Origin: an uncultured Mucispirillum sp.
Lineage (GTDB): Bacteria > Chrysiogenota > Deferribacteres > Deferribacterales > Mucispirillaceae
Reading direction: 5' to 3'
NCBI GenBank assembly: GCA_944326705.1
Contig: CALVEY010000015.1
Span: 1 to 56,566 of the forward strand
Length of the DNA: 56,566 nt
Each line of letters begins with the position of its first letter. The stretch's first letter is position 1. Shown piece after piece: positions 32,022-40,667 of the stretch. Position numbers and translations under genes: made by a program. Under the pieces are notes generated by a model that did no database searches, was not told the origin of the DNA, and saw nothing but the letters and a program-made list of their open reading frames with translations.

Positions 32022-33389
32022 TCACCACTCTATATTTTTCCCATATAAAAAATATCTGTCTAATTTATTTTTTAACATGTTGTCTACCTTTTTAGCATAG
32101 CCAACAGGGATATTATTAAAAAATAAAAGTTCGTTATTATAGTTATCATTACAGGATATGTCAAACCCTTTCAAAAAATTTTCTGCCAAATCTGCAGAAA
32201 TATTATATCTCATATTATTTTCTGTAAAAGAGCCCCACTGCCATACACTCTGGCATGACGGCTCATAAATTTTGCCAGTATCCTTGTAAAGATTTAAGCC
32301 CCGCCTTTTAAACTTAACTTTTTTAAATATTTCTGGGGCAGTTTCTATATAGCCCCGTCTGTCATATTCGCTGATTGATATATGGGAATAGGAAAAGGAT
32401 GGATAATATTTTTTAAAGAAATCTTTTTCCTTTTCCTTTAATTTAGAGTTTATAAAATTATAAGGAATAAATGTGCCCTTTTTACGAACTGCTGCTGCAA
32501 AAAAGCCATCTATTTTATCAGTATCCGGCATAATACGGGCAATATTTTCATCAATATGGCTTATTCCTGATAAGCCTTTGCCATAGTGACTGCCAGCAGG
32601 AAGAAGCTCTGCATTATCAAATTCATCAAGCAGATATTTTATAACATATTCGTTTTCTTCTAAACTTAAAGTGCAGGTAGAATATACTAATACTCCCCCT
32701 TCTTTTAAGCATAAAAAGGCTGATTTTATAAGCTGACGCTGTAAATCTGCCATTCTTTCTACAAGCTTTTTATTCCACTCTGCCTGCACAGTCTTATTAC
32801 GGAAAATTTTATTTTCATTAGAACACGGTGCATCAAGCAGAATACCGTCAAAAGAATTTTCAAAAATATTAGGTAAAAGCCTTCCGTCCATAGAAACAGT
32901 CTTTACATTATATGCTCCATATTTTTCTAAATTAAAATGAAGAGATTTTAAACGGCTTGCAGATATTTCATTGGCTACTATTATACCTTTCCTGTTACTC
33001 ATATCAGATAATGCACATGTTTTTCCGCCGGGAGCAGAAGATACATCAAGCATAACAGGGTTTTCTCCCATATAAGACATTAATATTTCAACTGGAGCAA
33101 TAGATGATGGGTTCATAATATATACTCCGCCTGTCTGAAAAGAAATACTCTCTACTATCTTATCAGCATTTTCCACTGCCTTATATATATTATCATATTC
33201 TTCAAGCTTTTCTAAAGTGCATATATTATTAAGTTCTAATAGATAATCAATATTTCTTGATGACTGCACACGAATATGGCGTGATTTTGGACATGAAAGA
33301 CCATATTCAAATTCATCATACTTATCTTTTAATAAAGGCTTATACTCTGCCCTGAATCGCTCTAACCAATTATTTTCCATAGCATACAC
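32022..33389 (-). CDS. RsmB/NOP-family rRNA m5C methyltransferase
   Basis: 455 residues (452 if the ATG at 33380 is used). It has the SAM-binding region GGKTCALSDMSNRKGIIVANE, the motif IV cysteine in LDAPCSNENK and the catalytic cysteine in VYSTCTLSLEENE. The order and the C-terminal PUA-like RNA-binding extension resemble RsmF/YebU. It methylates cytosine-5 in rRNA; the exact base is not deducible. It lies 41 bases downstream of the accessory operon and 7 bases upstream of the Csd6-like gene. Confidence 0.9.
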   Translation of the reverse strand: MYAMENNWLERFRAEYKPLLKDKYDEFEYGLSCPKSRHIRVQSSRNIDYLLELNNICTLEKLEEYDNIYKAVENADKIVESISFQTGGVYIMNPSSIAPVEILMSYMGENPVMLDVSSAPGGKTCALSDMSNRKGIIVANEISASRLKSLHFNLEKYGAYNVKTVSMDGRLLPNIFENSFDGILLDAPCSNENKIFRNKTVQAEWNKKLVERMADLQRQLIKSAFLCLKEGGVLVYSTCTLSLEENEYVIKYLLDEFDNAELLPAGSHYGKGLSGISHIDENIARIMPDTDKIDGFFAAAVRKKGTFIPYNFINSKLKEKEKDFFKKYYPSFSYSHISISEYDRRGYIETAPEIFKKVKFKRRGLNLYKDTGKIYEPSCQSVWQWGSFTENNMRYNISADLAENFLKGFDISCNDNYNNELLFFNNIPVGYAKKVDNMLKNKLDRYFLYGKNIEW

Positions 33390-33429
33390 AATATTAAATT
33401 AATAAAATTTATGCAAGGAAAAAAGTGAG

Positions 33430-35337
33430 TTAATATATAATGATTTTTCTATAATCATATAACCGTTTATAATCTAATGTTTTTTCTTGTATATATTTTT
33501 CATGATTACTAATTGTATCAAATATATGTTTTCCTATAGCTGCATTTTTTACGGAAAAACATTCTTTGCTTTTTTTTATCGCTTTTTTAGATTTACTTAT
33601 ATTACCCATTAAAAATTCATAAAGTGCAATTTCTCTCCATATTATATCGTTTGGATGTCCTTGTGCTGTTTCATTAAAATTATCAACCTGATACCTGATA
33701 ATACTATCTATTTCTATTTTATAATTAGTTAATTTTGTATTATTGACTGTTTTTAAAAACCAAAATAAATCAAATTTATCTAAAGTCTGAGTTGTTAAAT
33801 TTTCATAATCAGACAATATATACTCTAATGCTTTTTCAGGCTTCTCCCATTTCAAATACAACATTACTTTATAATTATGAAGCCTTCCAATATCTGATGA
33901 TAAAGTTAAATATCTTGCAACATTATCTAATGACTGCAATATTGCAGAAAATTCTTCATCTGTATTAGATGTAAAAATCAAACATTTTTGAAGTGTCATT
34001 ATAGAGCGTCTGTATATTTTAGAATAATTGAAGTCATCTATATTACCATTAGATAAAAGTTCCCATACTGTTCTATAATTTTCTATTAATGTATAATATT
34101 CTTTTGCTTTAATAGTTGCTTTTTCAAATTGTAGATCATTAATATAAGTTTCAATTTCATATAATTTATAATCTAAAATAAGTATAAAATATTCAGGATT
34201 GGAAGCTATTTTTGAGATATATTTTTCTTGCTCACCAATATAGATAAATGCATTTTCTGTATAACCTATATGATTACATACAAATAAAAGCATATTTTTT
34301 ATTCTAAATAATATATGTAAAAATTCTTTATAAGTTTTATTTTGTATTAATTCTTCCATTATATATGAAAGTAAACCTAACATTTGATATAAATCATCAA
34401 ATTTATCTATGTTTTTATAATTACGCCACAGTCTTTCTATTAATGCCTCAATTGTAGCTTTTGCTTTTAATGAACTTTTTTTATCTAAACTTTTTATTAA
34501 AATATTCTTTATAGATAATTTAATATTTTCACCAAATAACTCATTACTTTTACTTATTGAAAGAACTAAAAATCTATATAGTGCTAATACATAATCACCA
34601 TCTCTTTCTGCAATTTTTGCCTTGCGTAATTCATAATTTCCAAATGATTCAAATAATAAATATTTATTTTCTTTTTCAAGTGTTTTTAAATATCCTTTAG
34701 TATCTACATTATCAATATTATAAGTTAAATTAGCAATAAAATCAGCACAAACTAAACCCCACAAATCATTTGCATAGTGCAGCTCTATATTAATCTTATT
34801 ATTTAATAAATCTATAATACCACGAGCTGCAAGTCCTGCTTCAAAAGATAGCTTTAAATTATTTAACACATCTATTTTAATATCACTTACTGATGTCTGG
34901 CGTATTCCATCTATTGTTCTAGTTGCTACAATTAGGTCTAATCCATCAATTGTTGTATCATCTGGTATAACTGTTTCTATTAGAGCAAGTAAATCTGTCA
35001 TCATCAGTCTATAAGTCATTTCTCTTTCTGATAGTTTAGATTTAGTAAAATTGACAACAGAAATCATTGTATATTTCTTTTTTAATGTATCAAGATTACT
35101 TAAGATATTTTTTGCAATATATAATGCTTTTTCATGACCTAAATTAGCCCTAAATTCTGTCAAATGAAAATCTTTTATACTATCAAATCCTAATTTTTTT
35201 GGTATATGGCTATATATTTTTCTAAATTCCAAATCTATCTCTGCAAATTTTCCTTCAACTAGTAAACCAGATATAACCCATTTACCTTTTTTCGTTTCAA
35301 AATCACCAGATTCATCTATAAATAAAGTATAATACAT
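33430..35337 (-). CDS. DUF3800 protein with TPR-like C-terminal region
   Basis: 635 residues. The N-terminal 230 residues are DUF3800, with the acidic motif FIDESGDFE at 6-14 and the late WGLVCADFIANL motif. The fold is thought to be RNase H-like, so nuclease activity is plausible but unproven. The remaining 400 residues are helical, TPR-like repeats. The ATG overlaps the stop of the preceding nuclease gene by one base (TAATG), so it belongs to the same operon. Glutamine is almost always CAA, while core genes nearby favour CAG, supporting acquisition. It is probably the third component of the McrBC-like system. Confidence 0.8.
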   Translation of the reverse strand: MYYTLFIDESGDFETKKGKWVISGLLVEGKFAEIDLEFRKIYSHIPKKLGFDSIKDFHLTEFRANLGHEKALYIAKNILSNLDTLKKKYTMISVVNFTKSKLSEREMTYRLMMTDLLALIETVIPDDTTIDGLDLIVATRTIDGIRQTSVSDIKIDVLNNLKLSFEAGLAARGIIDLLNNKINIELHYANDLWGLVCADFIANLTYNIDNVDTKGYLKTLEKENKYLLFESFGNYELRKAKIAERDGDYVLALYRFLVLSISKSNELFGENIKLSIKNILIKSLDKKSSLKAKATIEALIERLWRNYKNIDKFDDLYQMLGLLSYIMEELIQNKTYKEFLHILFRIKNMLLFVCNHIGYTENAFIYIGEQEKYISKIASNPEYFILILDYKLYEIETYINDLQFEKATIKAKEYYTLIENYRTVWELLSNGNIDDFNYSKIYRRSIMTLQKCLIFTSNTDEEFSAILQSLDNVARYLTLSSDIGRLHNYKVMLYLKWEKPEKALEYILSDYENLTTQTLDKFDLFWFLKTVNNTKLTNYKIEIDSIIRYQVDNFNETAQGHPNDIIWREIALYEFLMGNISKSKKAIKKSKECFSVKNAAIGKHIFDTISNHEKYIQEKTLDYKRLYDYRKIIIY

Positions 35338-38009
35338 TAAAATTTCCTTAAATAATTAGTAGATTTATTTTGTTTCATTTCATAATACTTATCAGATTGT
35401 TCTTTCGTAAAAAAAGAATTACAGTTAGGACATTTTATATTATATATACTATCTTCATTATTATTATGATAAGTCCAAAATACACCATTTTTTATGAGTT
35501 TAACCTTACATGAAAAACAGTTTGTATAGATTAAAATATTATTACAATATTGGCAATATTTATACTTGAAATCAGAGCTAATTTCGATATTAGAAGCACT
35601 CATGAAATTATTTTCAACTTTCTTTCTTCTATCTTCTAATGTTTCAATATTTACATTACCACATGAAAGACATATCCAACGCTCAGGAATCTTTTTTGAA
35701 ATAGTATAAACATAATATTGTATACACATCCCTAAAAATCTTTGCATCATTGTTTGATATGAATAATTTTTAGGATTAATCACAATAGCTCCATACCTAT
35801 GATTTGCCATTATATCATCATATTCTTTGATACGTAATTCTTCAACTTCTTTTTTGCTATCAAATAATACACCCTCACCATAATATGAATACTTACCCCA
35901 TTTTTGGTTATTTATAACAATTCTTTCTCTAGATAAAGCATTAAAATCTGGATGTAAAATAAAAACTTTATTATAATAGTCTGTTTCATCATCTATATGC
36001 TTTTTATGAATATTATTATCTTTAAAATAATATTCATAAAAAGCATCATAATCTTTATCTTCTTGAAAAAAAGATACTTTACGTCCTGCGTAATCTTTTG
36101 AATAATATAATAGCCTTATAAGATATTTAATATCTGCTTCTTCATGAAATTTAGAATCTAATATTATTTGGTATGGAGCAATATTTTTATATACTATTTC
36201 TAAAATTATATCTGGACATTTTTTAGTTACTAATTCTTTTTCATACCATATATTTATATTACACTCTAATTCATCATTAATCAATTCAACTAATGTATTT
36301 TTTGATTTATCAGATAAAATGTTTTCTAATAATATATTTATCCAATTATTCTCTTTAGGTTTAAAATGGTAATACTGAATCAATATATTTATTACTATTA
36401 TAAAACACCATCTTTCATATAATTTAGGCATATCTATTACTGTAATATTTTGCTCAAAATACTGTATTAAACTAAGCTGTTTAATATCAATATTTTGGAT
36501 ATTAAGAAGTAATTTAAACATGGTAAATGTATTAGTATAAAAATAGTTTTGTACAAAAGTCATTGAGTTAGGAAAAATAGATGATGGACTAATTTTTAAT
36601 CGTTTAAATTGTTTATCCAAGTTTAACATCTTATTAGACAACTTTAATAGATCATTTTCATTTAACAACTTACTATATTCATTATACATTTTTTGATAAT
36701 TTTTTTTCATTATTTCAGATTCTTTTTTTAAATATTTTACTGCCTCTCTATCCTGTTTACTATTAAGGTCTATATTTCTCTGCCAATCATTTTTTTCATA
36801 TTCTTCAGCTTTAATTTTATACTCTTCAATTTTATCATTATAACTTAACGGTATGATAGATATAATATCTGATATTTTATAAGGAATAGTATAATTAATT
36901 TCTGCATTAATTATAAACCATTCATTCATCATTTTTATTTTTTCACATAAATCTTGATACTGTATAGGTATATTTATATAACAACAATATTTGTTTAGTT
37001 TCTTTACTCCACCAAAAGACATATCTATAGCACATTTAAATTTTATATATTGTTTGCTACTTTCCTTTTCTATAGCTATTTTTTTTATTTTATAAAAATG
37101 TCCTTCTTTTAAAATTATACCATTCATCACCTTAATTTGCTTGACTTGTTCAATACTTGAATATATGATTTGAAAATCTTTATAAATAGGCACAGATAGA
37201 TTAATAAAAGAATATTTTTCCGAAAATAACTGTGGTTCTTCACATATAATACTATACTTTCCTAAATTTTTATTTTTAAGGTTCTTACTTAATTTTTCAT
37301 TATATATTCTATATACTATATTATTTTTTTGATTTCCCATAATCGTATCAAAATATTTGTCCCCGTTATTGTCTCCTATATATCGAATATCAATTGTATA
37401 TTTATTACATTGAGATAATTTTGATTTATCCCCAGTCATTTTTTTAAGCAATTCATCTCTTTCATTAATTAAAAGTTGAGTATCACGATAAAATATATCT
37501 TTATTAACCTGTACTTTATTACTTCTTAAAACCTCATTTATCTCTTCCATTTGATTTTTGAATTCACTTATTTTTTTATTTGTAGATACTCGTATATATT
37601 TTTGATAATTAATATTGTTAGACAAAATATATTTAATACAATCAAAAGTCCAATATATATATTGATTATCTGGTATATCATAATTTTCTACTTTTGATTT
37701 ACTTGTGTAATATTGTTTACTAGGGTCTGATATGTATTCTATAAATGTTTTTGTTGTAGGTGCTATTTTTTTTATATTTTCTTTTATAAAATATTCTTTT
37801 AATATTACTTTGGGTTGCTTTAGAATTTTATCTATATTATTAAGATATTCTTCCAATACTTTTTTATATTGTTCAGTAATACCTATGGTAGTAGCTTTTA
37901 TTTTCATATTAGAATATGAATTTTTACTATAAATTAGTTTCCAAAGTTCATTTTTAAAATCATCAAGCATAATACTTACATCTTCTTGACTTAAACTAAT
38001 ATTTTTCAC
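35337..38009 (-). CDS. DUF2357 / PD-(D/E)XK nuclease (McrC-like), main part
   Basis: 890 residues from a weak GTG at 38009 with no ribosome site. The same frame is open without ATG or TTG up to 38149, directly after the 80-codon frame at 38147-38389. The true N-terminus is therefore probably that upstream frame joined by a -1 shift (about 1017 residues in total). Residues 85-130 match the DUF2357 pattern (SKVENYDIPDNQYIYW). A coiled coil is near 400-470. The nuclease core is CPDIILEI (about 598-605) and IILDSKF (about 615-621). The C-terminus has three CxxC knuckles (about 770-865). It is the likely DNA- or RNA-cutting partner of the AAA+ protein encoded upstream. Confidence 0.82.
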   Translation of the reverse strand: MKNISLSQEDVSIMLDDFKNELWKLIYSKNSYSNMKIKATTIGITEQYKKVLEEYLNNIDKILKQPKVILKEYFIKENIKKIAPTTKTFIEYISDPSKQYYTSKSKVENYDIPDNQYIYWTFDCIKYILSNNINYQKYIRVSTNKKISEFKNQMEEINEVLRSNKVQVNKDIFYRDTQLLINERDELLKKMTGDKSKLSQCNKYTIDIRYIGDNNGDKYFDTIMGNQKNNIVYRIYNEKLSKNLKNKNLGKYSIICEEPQLFSEKYSFINLSVPIYKDFQIIYSSIEQVKQIKVMNGIILKEGHFYKIKKIAIEKESSKQYIKFKCAIDMSFGGVKKLNKYCCYINIPIQYQDLCEKIKMMNEWFIINAEINYTIPYKISDIISIIPLSYNDKIEEYKIKAEEYEKNDWQRNIDLNSKQDREAVKYLKKESEIMKKNYQKMYNEYSKLLNENDLLKLSNKMLNLDKQFKRLKISPSSIFPNSMTFVQNYFYTNTFTMFKLLLNIQNIDIKQLSLIQYFEQNITVIDMPKLYERWCFIIVINILIQYYHFKPKENNWINILLENILSDKSKNTLVELINDELECNINIWYEKELVTKKCPDIILEIVYKNIAPYQIILDSKFHEEADIKYLIRLLYYSKDYAGRKVSFFQEDKDYDAFYEYYFKDNNIHKKHIDDETDYYNKVFILHPDFNALSRERIVINNQKWGKYSYYGEGVLFDSKKEVEELRIKEYDDIMANHRYGAIVINPKNYSYQTMMQRFLGMCIQYYVYTISKKIPERWICLSCGNVNIETLEDRRKKVENNFMSASNIEISSDFKYKYCQYCNNILIYTNCFSCKVKLIKNGVFWTYHNNNEDSIYNIKCPNCNSFFTKEQSDKYYEMKQNKSTNYLRKF

Positions 38010-38146
38010 ATTAATATCTACTAAAATATCACCAAAATATATTTTAGCATCACCTATATGATTGATAAATAATGACTCATAATATTTCCCTTTTTTATTC
38101 CACTTATTGTTTTCTACCCACCATATCTTATTTGTAACAGGATCTA

Positions 38147-38389
38147 TTATTTTTTTAACACTTTCTTTCTGCCATTATTTAATAATATAACTGGAATAAT
38201 ATTATCATCATCTAGTTGAAAAGCAATTTGTGCATATAAATTATCAATCTTTGTGTATGTATATAACTGAAGAAAATATGCATTATCATCTATATATTCT
38301 AACTTTTCTGATAAAAAATTTTCTTTTACTTCTTCTATTTCATTTTCATTTTTCCATTTTATATTCAAATATTTGGCTTCAATATTCAT
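38147..38389 (-). CDS. N-terminal part of the McrC-like nuclease, ending at an A7 frameshift site
   Basis: 80 codons starting at ATG 38389, 2 bases after the stop of the McrB-like gene. The peptide (MNIEAKYLNIKWKNENEIEE...) continues in character into the -1 frame (IIDPVTNKIWWVENNKWN) that leads into the 890-residue nuclease. Reading stops at TAA 38149-38147, immediately after A AAA AAA. I read it as one gene interrupted by a frameshift: programmed, phase-variable, a mutation or a sequencing error. Alternatively it is a free small subunit. Confidence 0.65.
   Translation of the reverse strand: MNIEAKYLNIKWKNENEIEEVKENFLSEKLEYIDDNAYFLQLYTYTKIDNLYAQIAFQLDDDNIIPVILLNNGRKKVLKK
38150..38156 (-). 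other. A7 slippery site before in-frame stop
   Basis: Minus-strand reading is GTG TTA AAA AAA TAA. The heptamer A AAA AAA is in the correct phase for -1 slippage of the dnaX type, and the -1 frame reads ATA ATA GAT into the nuclease. A homopolymer of this size can also vary by replication slippage. Confidence 0.6.
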
Positions 38390-38391
38390 TT

Positions 38392-40569
38392 TTATGCCCA
38401 GTAGTTAACTATATCTTGATTATTTTTTGCTCTACTGATTACATCTACTAATTCATCAATTACATCTTTATACTGATTATCTTCCTGACTTAAAATAGTC
38501 TTCAATTCTTGCAGCATATTTTCCAGCAGCATTATTTTAGTTGTTTTATCATCTATTTTTTTGTTACCATCAAATGTAAGTTTAGGAAGTATTTTATGTA
38601 TAATATAATTATTTAAAATAAGATATTTATCTATATTTAGTTCATGACATATGTTATTATAATTCATACCCTGCCTGATAGTTCTAAAACTAAATTCTAC
38701 ACCCATAGGCAGTAAATATTTCTCTACAAGAATAAGTATATTATTAACAAATTCATCATCTTTTCGAAACTCTGGATATTCTTTTCTTATGCCTAACTGT
38801 ATAGGTGTAAGTTTTATTTTTTTATCAATATATTTATACTCTGTATCTACACCATAATCTTTATTAAGACTTAAAAAAGGACTTTTAAATCTTATAATAT
38901 GTGCCCTATCCAATATTTTTGGTGATAAATAGTTTGTTGTTTCATCTATATTTATTGCTCCAAAAAATCTTACATTATTTGGTATTTCAATTTTAGGCTG
39001 TATAGTAAATGCATTATTTAAAATATTTCTCAGATGAATGTAATAAGAGATTAATGACTCTTTTTCAGTTAAACCAAAAACCTTTCTTATTTCATTATTT
39101 AAATCATCATCCTGCATCATATCAAGATATGAATAATCGCTGCCTTTATCTGTTTTATTTGTTATATATTCTAAAATATCTATAAAACTATAAATTTCTT
39201 TTAAATTATTTTTACTTTCATTATCACTATACAATTGTATTTCTATATTTTTTGTCCGCTCTTCTAATAGTGATAAAAAGTCTGCAAAATAATACTCAAC
39301 CCTTGCAAGATTCATTTCATCTAAACAAATAAAATAAGGAATATCTGGATTTTCAATAGCTTCTCTTATAGCTTCTGTAAATTCAGTAGATAAAAAGCGT
39401 TTTTCAATTGGATTATAATACCCTAACAAATCCTCAGAACCTGTCCAGTTTGGTTTAACAGGAATAATTTTAGCAATTCCACCAATTGCATCTGCAAAAT
39501 ATTTAACAAGACTAGTTTTTCCAGTTCCAGAATCACCTGCTAATACAATAAAATCATTAGTTTGTAATAATGCATAGAAATCCATTAATAACTCTTTTTC
39601 ATACATTATTCCTTTTTTATATAAATATGCTTGTATATGATTTATAAGCTTATCAGGATTATTTTCTATATCATCATAAGTTATATAAGTTCCTTCTTCT
39701 AAAGTATATTTTTTTTCTACACCTGTTAACTGTTTAAATTTATCATCATCTAAAAGACCAAGCTGTAAAAGTTTATTTGCTTTTTTCTGCAATTCTTTTG
39801 CTATTTCTTTATCCATATTATCCCTCAATTCTATAAGCCTTTCTATTTCATTTTTACAATCTTCAATATTATGAATAAGCTCTTCTAAATTACTATTTTT
39901 TTCTTGAATATCATTTAAAAGGATTTGATGCTGCTCTTCTGTTTCCTCTACAACCTTTTCTAAATCATTTAATTTCTCTTTATTAGCATTAATTCCATTT
40001 TCTATTTCTTGGCTATTTTCTTTAATAACTGATTCAACAATAGATTTTGTTATTAAAATATTACCCTCACTATCTTTGTATAATTCAATATCTTCCATAC
40101 TTTTCAACTCTCTATATGAATCCACCTGTAACTGCAATGGGTTAAGATGTTTTTCCCTTTCATAGGTTGGTGAAAATGATAATATCATTAAAAATATACC
40201 ATTTTCTGCTTTATATTTGATAATATTATATTTATCTGGTGCAAGAAATATACTTTGAGCTTCCGCAGTTAATCCTGTTAAAGGATAAGATAATTCATTA
40301 CCAAAATACGGATGATAAAACTTATTAATCCATACAGAATTATCTAGCACTAGAATATCCCTATAATACACAACGACAAAGATTTTGTTGAAAGGCATTT
40401 TCCAATGGATACTGATATATTTCTTCAAAAACCCATCATTAAAAACAACTTGATTATCTTTTTTTATAAATCCACCAGAATCTCTGTCCAAAATATCATA
40501 AACATCTTTTATATCAAACTGCCCATTTGTTTCTGACATATTTATTCCATATTTATTTAATAATTCCAT
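38392..40569 (-). CDS. McrB-like AAA+ ATPase with N-terminal domain and long coiled coil
   Basis: 725 residues. An N-terminal beta-rich domain of unknown type (1-175) is followed by a coiled coil (about 180-265, heptads rich in Glu, Leu, Asn and Lys) and a McrB-family AAA+ domain. Walker A is LAGDSGTGKT (343-352). Walker B FICLDEMNLARVEYYFADFL (413-432) is the McrB-type block. The sensor-like GAINIDETTNYL (about 538-549) replaces the MNTAD nucleotide motif of E. coli McrB, so GTP specificity is uncertain. It is likely the motor that loads the downstream nuclease. It has no ribosome site; a TATAAT lies 8 bases from the ATG. Confidence 0.88.
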   Translation of the reverse strand: MELLNKYGINMSETNGQFDIKDVYDILDRDSGGFIKKDNQVVFNDGFLKKYISIHWKMPFNKIFVVVYYRDILVLDNSVWINKFYHPYFGNELSYPLTGLTAEAQSIFLAPDKYNIIKYKAENGIFLMILSFSPTYEREKHLNPLQLQVDSYRELKSMEDIELYKDSEGNILITKSIVESVIKENSQEIENGINANKEKLNDLEKVVEETEEQHQILLNDIQEKNSNLEELIHNIEDCKNEIERLIELRDNMDKEIAKELQKKANKLLQLGLLDDDKFKQLTGVEKKYTLEEGTYITYDDIENNPDKLINHIQAYLYKKGIMYEKELLMDFYALLQTNDFIVLAGDSGTGKTSLVKYFADAIGGIAKIIPVKPNWTGSEDLLGYYNPIEKRFLSTEFTEAIREAIENPDIPYFICLDEMNLARVEYYFADFLSLLEERTKNIEIQLYSDNESKNNLKEIYSFIDILEYITNKTDKGSDYSYLDMMQDDDLNNEIRKVFGLTEKESLISYYIHLRNILNNAFTIQPKIEIPNNVRFFGAINIDETTNYLSPKILDRAHIIRFKSPFLSLNKDYGVDTEYKYIDKKIKLTPIQLGIRKEYPEFRKDDEFVNNILILVEKYLLPMGVEFSFRTIRQGMNYNNICHELNIDKYLILNNYIIHKILPKLTFDGNKKIDDKTTKIMLLENMLQELKTILSQEDNQYKDVIDELVDVISRAKNNQDIVNYWA

Positions 40570-40577
40570 AGTAACAT

Positions 40578-40583
40578 ATTATA
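40578..40583 (-). promoter_or_regulatory. -10 element of the McrBC-like operon, leaderless configuration
   Basis: TATAAT on the minus strand (40583-40578) ends 8 bases before the ATG at 40569. Transcription starting 6-8 bases after it would begin at the start codon. No clear -35 and no Shine-Dalgarno sequence are seen. Confidence 0.45.
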
Positions 40584-40640
40584 TTTATTTTTTCAATAAT
40601 GAATAATGTCATTAAATAAATACTTATCTAATTTATTCAT

Positions 40641-40667
40641 TTGACATTTCCTATCCTATATTATATT
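40641..40667 (+). promoter_or_regulatory. Probable dprA promoter
   Basis: TTGACA at 40641-40646 and TATATT at 40662-40667 have a 15-bp spacer. It sits in the 152-base gap between the divergent McrB-like and dprA genes. Its TTG is in frame with dprA but is not a start codon. Confidence 0.4.

Follow-up and report, generated by a model that had tools for sequence, protein, structure and literature searches.

Type I CoCoNuT (coiled-coil nuclease tandem) systems are marked by an NxD motif in the GTPase together with a coiled coil, and an insert between the Walker B and NxD motifs marks subtype I-A (Bell et al. 2024, PMC11090510). The nuclease subunits of Type I systems, the CnuC proteins, carry an N-terminal immunoglobulin-like beta domain (PMC11090510). 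Subtype I-A is described as consisting of two genes, and DUF3800 is not mentioned in the main text of that paper (PMC11090510). Two further points of comparison are the PADLOC candidate system PDC-M26 and E. coli McrBC, a Type IV restriction system.

The window analysed here is a 56,566-nucleotide stretch of DNA from an uncultured Mucispirillum sp. (contig CALVEY010000015.1 of assembly GCA_944326705.1). It carries an island with a three-gene operon resembling these systems, in which the nuclease gene is split between two reading frames:

33426..40630: genomic island of 7.2 kb between dprA and an RsmB-like gene, 23.5% GC against 32.5% in the flanks
38392..40569, minus strand: McrB-like GTPase subunit, CnuB-like (PADLOC PDC-M26A), 725 aa, intact
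38147..38389, minus strand: 5' piece of the split nuclease gene, with an ATG start, 80 codons and TAA, coding for the beginning of the N-terminal beta domain
38150..38156, minus strand: A7 run where the frame is lost, A_AAA_AAA in phase with TAA directly after it
35337..38150, minus strand: remainder of this gene, in the -1 frame, with the end of the beta domain, a DUF2357-type helical region, PD-(D/E)xK (PDDEXK_7) and C-terminal zinc-ribbon cysteines
35337..38009, minus strand: sole candidate restart frame, GTG 38009, 890 codons, starting at about residue 132 of the homologues
33430..35337, minus strand: third gene, DUF3800-like, N-terminus FIDESGDF, 635 aa, its ATG overlapping the nuclease stop (TAATG)

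Class of the system

The McrB-like GTPase subunit matches the PADLOC profile PDLC04547 with E=1.6e-198, and Pfam AAA_5 scores above its cut-off. Its motifs are GDSGTGKT (Walker A), FICLDE (Walker B) and N540-I-D542-E (NxD), and the string INIDE, which is NxD and not NxxD, is invariant across four CnuB-like proteins. The AlphaFold models that we used are weak (pLDDT 48 and 43, with a mean of 43 for the CnuB-like model). Within a model that is poor overall, a continuous helix at residues 175-269, with a block of pLDDT 62-78 at about 191-240, is predicted as a coiled coil N-terminal to the GTPase. LDE 416-418 and N540 are separated by an insert of about 120 residues, predicted to be mostly helical in a structure of low confidence. 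We also looked for a cold-shock-like OB fold at the N-terminus, where the model has strands at 63-132 with a pLDDT of only about 30-40.

The locus thus resembles Type I CoCoNuT in its NxD motif followed by E, its coiled coil before the GTPase and the long insert that separates Walker B from NxD. The likeness extends to the nuclease, with its N-terminal beta domain (assigned from a weak model and cut by the frameshift), DUF2357-type region, PD-(D/E)xK motif and zinc-ribbon cysteines. Unlike the described systems, it has a CnuC split by a frameshift and a translationally coupled DUF3800-like gene downstream. Because this third gene is present, where I-A is a two-gene operon, we state the subtype as I-A-like and not as membership of I-A. 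The two components of PDC-M26, M26A and M26B, are both found in their order, but M26B is in two consecutive pieces and not in a single open reading frame. With E. coli McrBC the locus shares an AAA+ GTPase and a PD-(D/E)xK partner in a single operon. It differs from McrBC in having NxD for NxxD, a coiled coil in place of the DNA-binding domain, and a nuclease with an extra beta domain and zinc ribbons. Sequence searches of the PDB gave no useful match. The locus is best explained as an acquired operon for anti-phage defence, which encodes a Type I CoCoNuT-like system related to McrBC.

The frame break

On the minus strand, the 80-codon frame (38389-38147) ends in GTG TTA AAA AAA TAA. From 38150 the -1 frame is open for 937 codons, up to the stop at 35337, and the first ATG, GTG or TTG in it is GTG 38009. 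A stop-free stretch of 936 codons has a probability of about 1e-46 given the base composition of the -1 frame, which rules out chance as its origin. Joined, the two parts would make a nuclease of about 1017 residues (80 + 937). The first-pass annotation had described the same terminal codons, the same open frame lacking ATG and TTG, and the same joined length, and all of these are borne out by the letters. The frame break in the assembled sequence is real.

Positions 4-84 of the PADLOC profile PDC-M26B (PDLC04548) align with the small frame (E=8.2e-10) and positions 85-446 with the large frame (E=1e-101). As the profile runs over the break with no gap, the two frames encode successive stretches of a single protein. 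The small frame is 32-33% identical to the N-terminus of fused homologues, and is by this alignment and the profile match the N-terminal part of the nuclease. In the large frame, Pfam PDDEXK_7 (PF04411) scores 24.6 bits, above its cut-off of 22.1, and DUF2357 passes its cut-off solely in the Psychrobacter homologue. Alignment with homologues shows that the downstream frame retains the invariant residues D646, D664 and K666 as well as the conserved Cys pairs. The downstream frame is thus intact, with its catalytic and zinc-binding residues, as are the partner genes. The -1 product, NGRKKVLKKIIDPVTN, aligns gap-free to the NGDRKQLESITDPASN of the homologues, and the loss of a single base is therefore the simplest change. 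The break falls at codon 81-82, near residue 85. The Vibrio homologue, in a weak model, is beta-rich over residues 1-133 and has helices from 139 onwards. On these profile matches and alignments, the split protein is a CnuC nuclease broken within its N-terminal beta domain.

Homologues of the nuclease

Alignment with homologues had been proposed as a way of finding out whether the N-terminus is normally fused to the nuclease, and it is. At least 14 relatives encode the nuclease in one frame, and intact one-frame genes are found on plasmids of Klebsiella, Edwardsiella and Pseudoalteromonas, in genomes of Vibrio and Enterobacter, and in a number of others. None of the homologues whose junction was read has an A run there. 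Because these relatives have a one-piece protein, a recent inactivating or barely leaky mutation is likelier than a programmed frameshift.

Broken copies of cnuC occur elsewhere. The Psychrobacter locus L013 has a -1 break at TTA AAA AAG, and its 93% identical twin, L066, is intact with one more A (a change from A7 to A6 in L013); cnuB of L013 has lost a further base. In L070, cnuC has lost one C relative to the 92% identical L069. The breaks in L013 and L070 lie at other positions than the A7 site of the window, and altogether three of the five three-gene operons have a one-base deletion in cnuC, in a different place in each. The loss of cnuC is thus recurrent and independent of position, which fits inactivation (or, in loci L012 and L013, sequence error) and does not fit a recoding signal.

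The A_AAA_AAG of L013, a second slippery -1 break, was also considered as a sign of a conserved recoding signal, and was rejected because the near-twin L066 is intact with one more A. The cnuC of Enterovibrio sp. JCM 19048 (L012, 4716-7322) has several frame breaks and belongs either to a pseudogene or to a low-quality draft. In L065 (3951-8674, reverse), a transposase gene that we name IS30-like from its sequence lies inside the cnuC homologue, and an IS3-like element follows.

Origin of the frame break

The first-pass annotation had offered four explanations: programmed frameshifting, phase variation, a disabling mutation and a sequencing error. The homologues fused in one frame support the disruption of a normally single protein, and of the four explanations the disabling mutation is the one best supported. 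We consider it probable that the gene, which encodes a defence nuclease of a known kind, is a loss-of-function or low-leak allele that arose recently through a change in a homopolymer. CnuC is normally one protein, and a single base would have been lost from the homopolymer at codon 81-82, most simply turning A8 into A7. Normal translation would then yield an 80-residue dead-end fragment. The nuclease part could be made only by rare slippage on A7, either as a -1 shift of the ribosome or as an extra A added by RNA polymerase, or by a weak restart at GTG 38009. We infer the ancestral A8, the recency of the change and a loss of function that leaves no more than a slight leak. The A8 ancestor has to be inferred because none of the phylum's 49 other genomes has the system, and with it an intact sister allele of this gene. 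The 937 open codons downstream imply that the break is recent or tolerated, and the kept catalytic residues are compatible with a recent break and with continued selection alike.

If instead the ribosome shifted by -1 at A_AAA_AAA in a programmed manner, the toxic nuclease would be held at a low, fixed ratio. The heptamer is indeed phased for such slippage, as the first-pass annotation had pointed out, with a 0-frame stop immediately after it, and the -1 product continues as homologous sequence in a long open frame. However, the same heptamer is found in phase 15 times among the 14,804 codons of intact genes nearby, and the nuclease frame itself holds three more copies; being so frequent in intact genes, it carries little weight by itself. 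The main criterion for recoding is conservation of the frameshift site among homologues (PMC3711429). Here at least 14 homologues are intact in one frame, none changes frame at the A7 site, and the broken copies break elsewhere and have intact near-twins. A search upstream of the A7 run for the Shine-Dalgarno-like motifs GAGG, GGAG, AGGA, GGNGG and AGGKG (criteria of PMC4066793) found none, and no stimulatory structure was found downstream (z-scores of the RNA folding MFE from -0.44 to +1.56). With its site unconserved and no stimulator found, the suggestion of programmed frameshifting lacks support, and we regard it as very unlikely. Even more improbable is a functional split, in which the 80-residue piece would be useless and an 890-residue nuclease without the beta domain would be made from GTG 38009. 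By homologue alignment and the predicted secondary structure of the Vibrio protein, this codon does map to where the beta domain borders on the first DUF2357 helix, and E. coli K-12 McrC is an example of a nuclease without such a domain (PMC11090510). Against this, no Shine-Dalgarno-like sequence lies just upstream of GTG 38009, the gap between the TAA and this codon is about 137 nt, and the beta domain is kept in all intact homologues of the family.

An assembly or sequencing error would mean that the real gene is intact in a single frame. Single-base homopolymer events are a classic artefact, singleton frameshifts with a BLASTP-validated fusion are expected to be mostly errors (PMC3711429), and the several one-base deletions within the L013 operon look like errors. 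The same assembly, however, shares 167 full-length orthologues with the related genome G006, and none of these is split. All 192 A/T runs of 7 or more within these orthologues are unbroken (95% upper bound 1.6% per run). Since selection purges real frameshifts and not sequencing errors, the 0 of 192 argues against error. Nor does a frame split appear where genes of the window match the sister species G003 (43 open reading frames with matches) and G006 (31). These counts render the suggested error unlikely. In reversible phase variation, the run would alternate in length within the population, A7 being off and A8 on, and active nuclease would be confined to a part of the cells. The position of the homopolymer close to the 5' end of the coding region, the wholly intact downstream frame, the abundance of A/T runs of 7-8 in the three-gene operon (19) and the loss of frame at homopolymers in other operons of the family all speak for it. 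On the other hand, 7-8 nt is on the short side for a contingency tract, runs of equal length are common in intact backbone genes (the 192 of 7 or more), and the A7 site is not conserved as a tract in homologues. We therefore think phase variation improbable as well, and retain the inactivated or barely leaky allele as the reading of choice.

Residual nuclease production

How much nuclease such an allele could still make may be judged from published rates. Unstimulated heptamers in E. coli reach at most about 10 times a background of 0.055% (PMC4066793), insertion by E. coli RNA polymerase at one A7 run affected 0.39% of transcripts (PMC6260861), and frameshifting on one A_AAA_AAA cassette in E. 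coli amounted to 10% (PMC3711429). In a methyltransferase gene, an indel in an 8A run is bypassed and functional protein is made (PMC3812077). The last two cases imply that the A7 allele could exceed marginal activity, and the 15 in-phase heptamers in intact backbone genes would argue against strong slippage in this host. Our best guess from these rates is a leak below 1%; a leak of several per cent is possible.

The homopolymer indels of M.HaeIII (PMC3812077) and tssM (PMC4256274), which are bypassed by slippage, share with our case the one-base change in an A run and the intact downstream frame. The same holds for the bypassed indels of Buchnera and Blochmannia, as far as these are cited in PMC5009743. 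Our case differs from them in that the bypass is only putative and A7 is at the short end of the range.

What tempts one to read a programmed frameshift into a defence nuclease is thus better read as gene inactivation. A leaky or phase-variable A7 allele, if that is what it is, would offer an easy way of carrying a costly nuclease at a low dose. A broader, rather doubtful proposal is that three-gene CoCoNuT-like operons tolerate or exploit one-base losses in cnuC; in many cells the nuclease would then be silent or leaky, and slippage or reversion would restore it.

Genomic island and distribution

The island is horizontally acquired. In the sister species G003 the site is empty, with dprA and the RsmB-like gene 106 bp apart. 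Fifty genomes of the phylum, the genus included, were searched for the system, and it was found in none of the other 49, so that a CoCoNuT-like system is now placed in a phylum whose other searched genomes lack one. Searches of viral contigs and phages and of two other phyla likewise found no relatives.

The interval from dprA to the RsmB-like gene (33389-40641 in the window; also seen in loci L036, L037 and L038) is occupied differently in other genomes. In G005 it holds, at 24.8% GC, two DNA methyltransferases, an NxxD-type McrB and a further gene, and in G001 a small toxin-antitoxin-like pair, with functions assigned by sequence inspection. The interval appears to be a hot spot at which defence genes insert.

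Remnants and the third gene

A lone 131-residue domain match on Klebsiella plasmids was considered as a stand-alone N-terminal protein and rejected, as the copy that was fully read is a remnant. This remnant (L047, 4522-5498) consists of a C-terminal portion of CnuB and some 148 N-terminal residues of CnuC, the latter joined to foreign sequence. Transposase genes lie nearby, and several plasmid records have the same partial match, of which one was fully read.

Over 600 aa, the third gene of the window shares 30% identity with its Psychrobacter counterpart (L013, 7421-9349), which passes the DUF3800 cut-off, and the order CnuB, CnuC, DUF3800-like is also found in L013, L066, L069 and L070. Among four operons of one bacterial family, the third gene is 88-94% identical to the Psychrobacter copy, and the cnuC genes upstream of it fall into two groups that are mutually only about 26-27% identical. 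These identities suggest that the third gene may have been retained as the CnuBC module was swapped, or the reverse.
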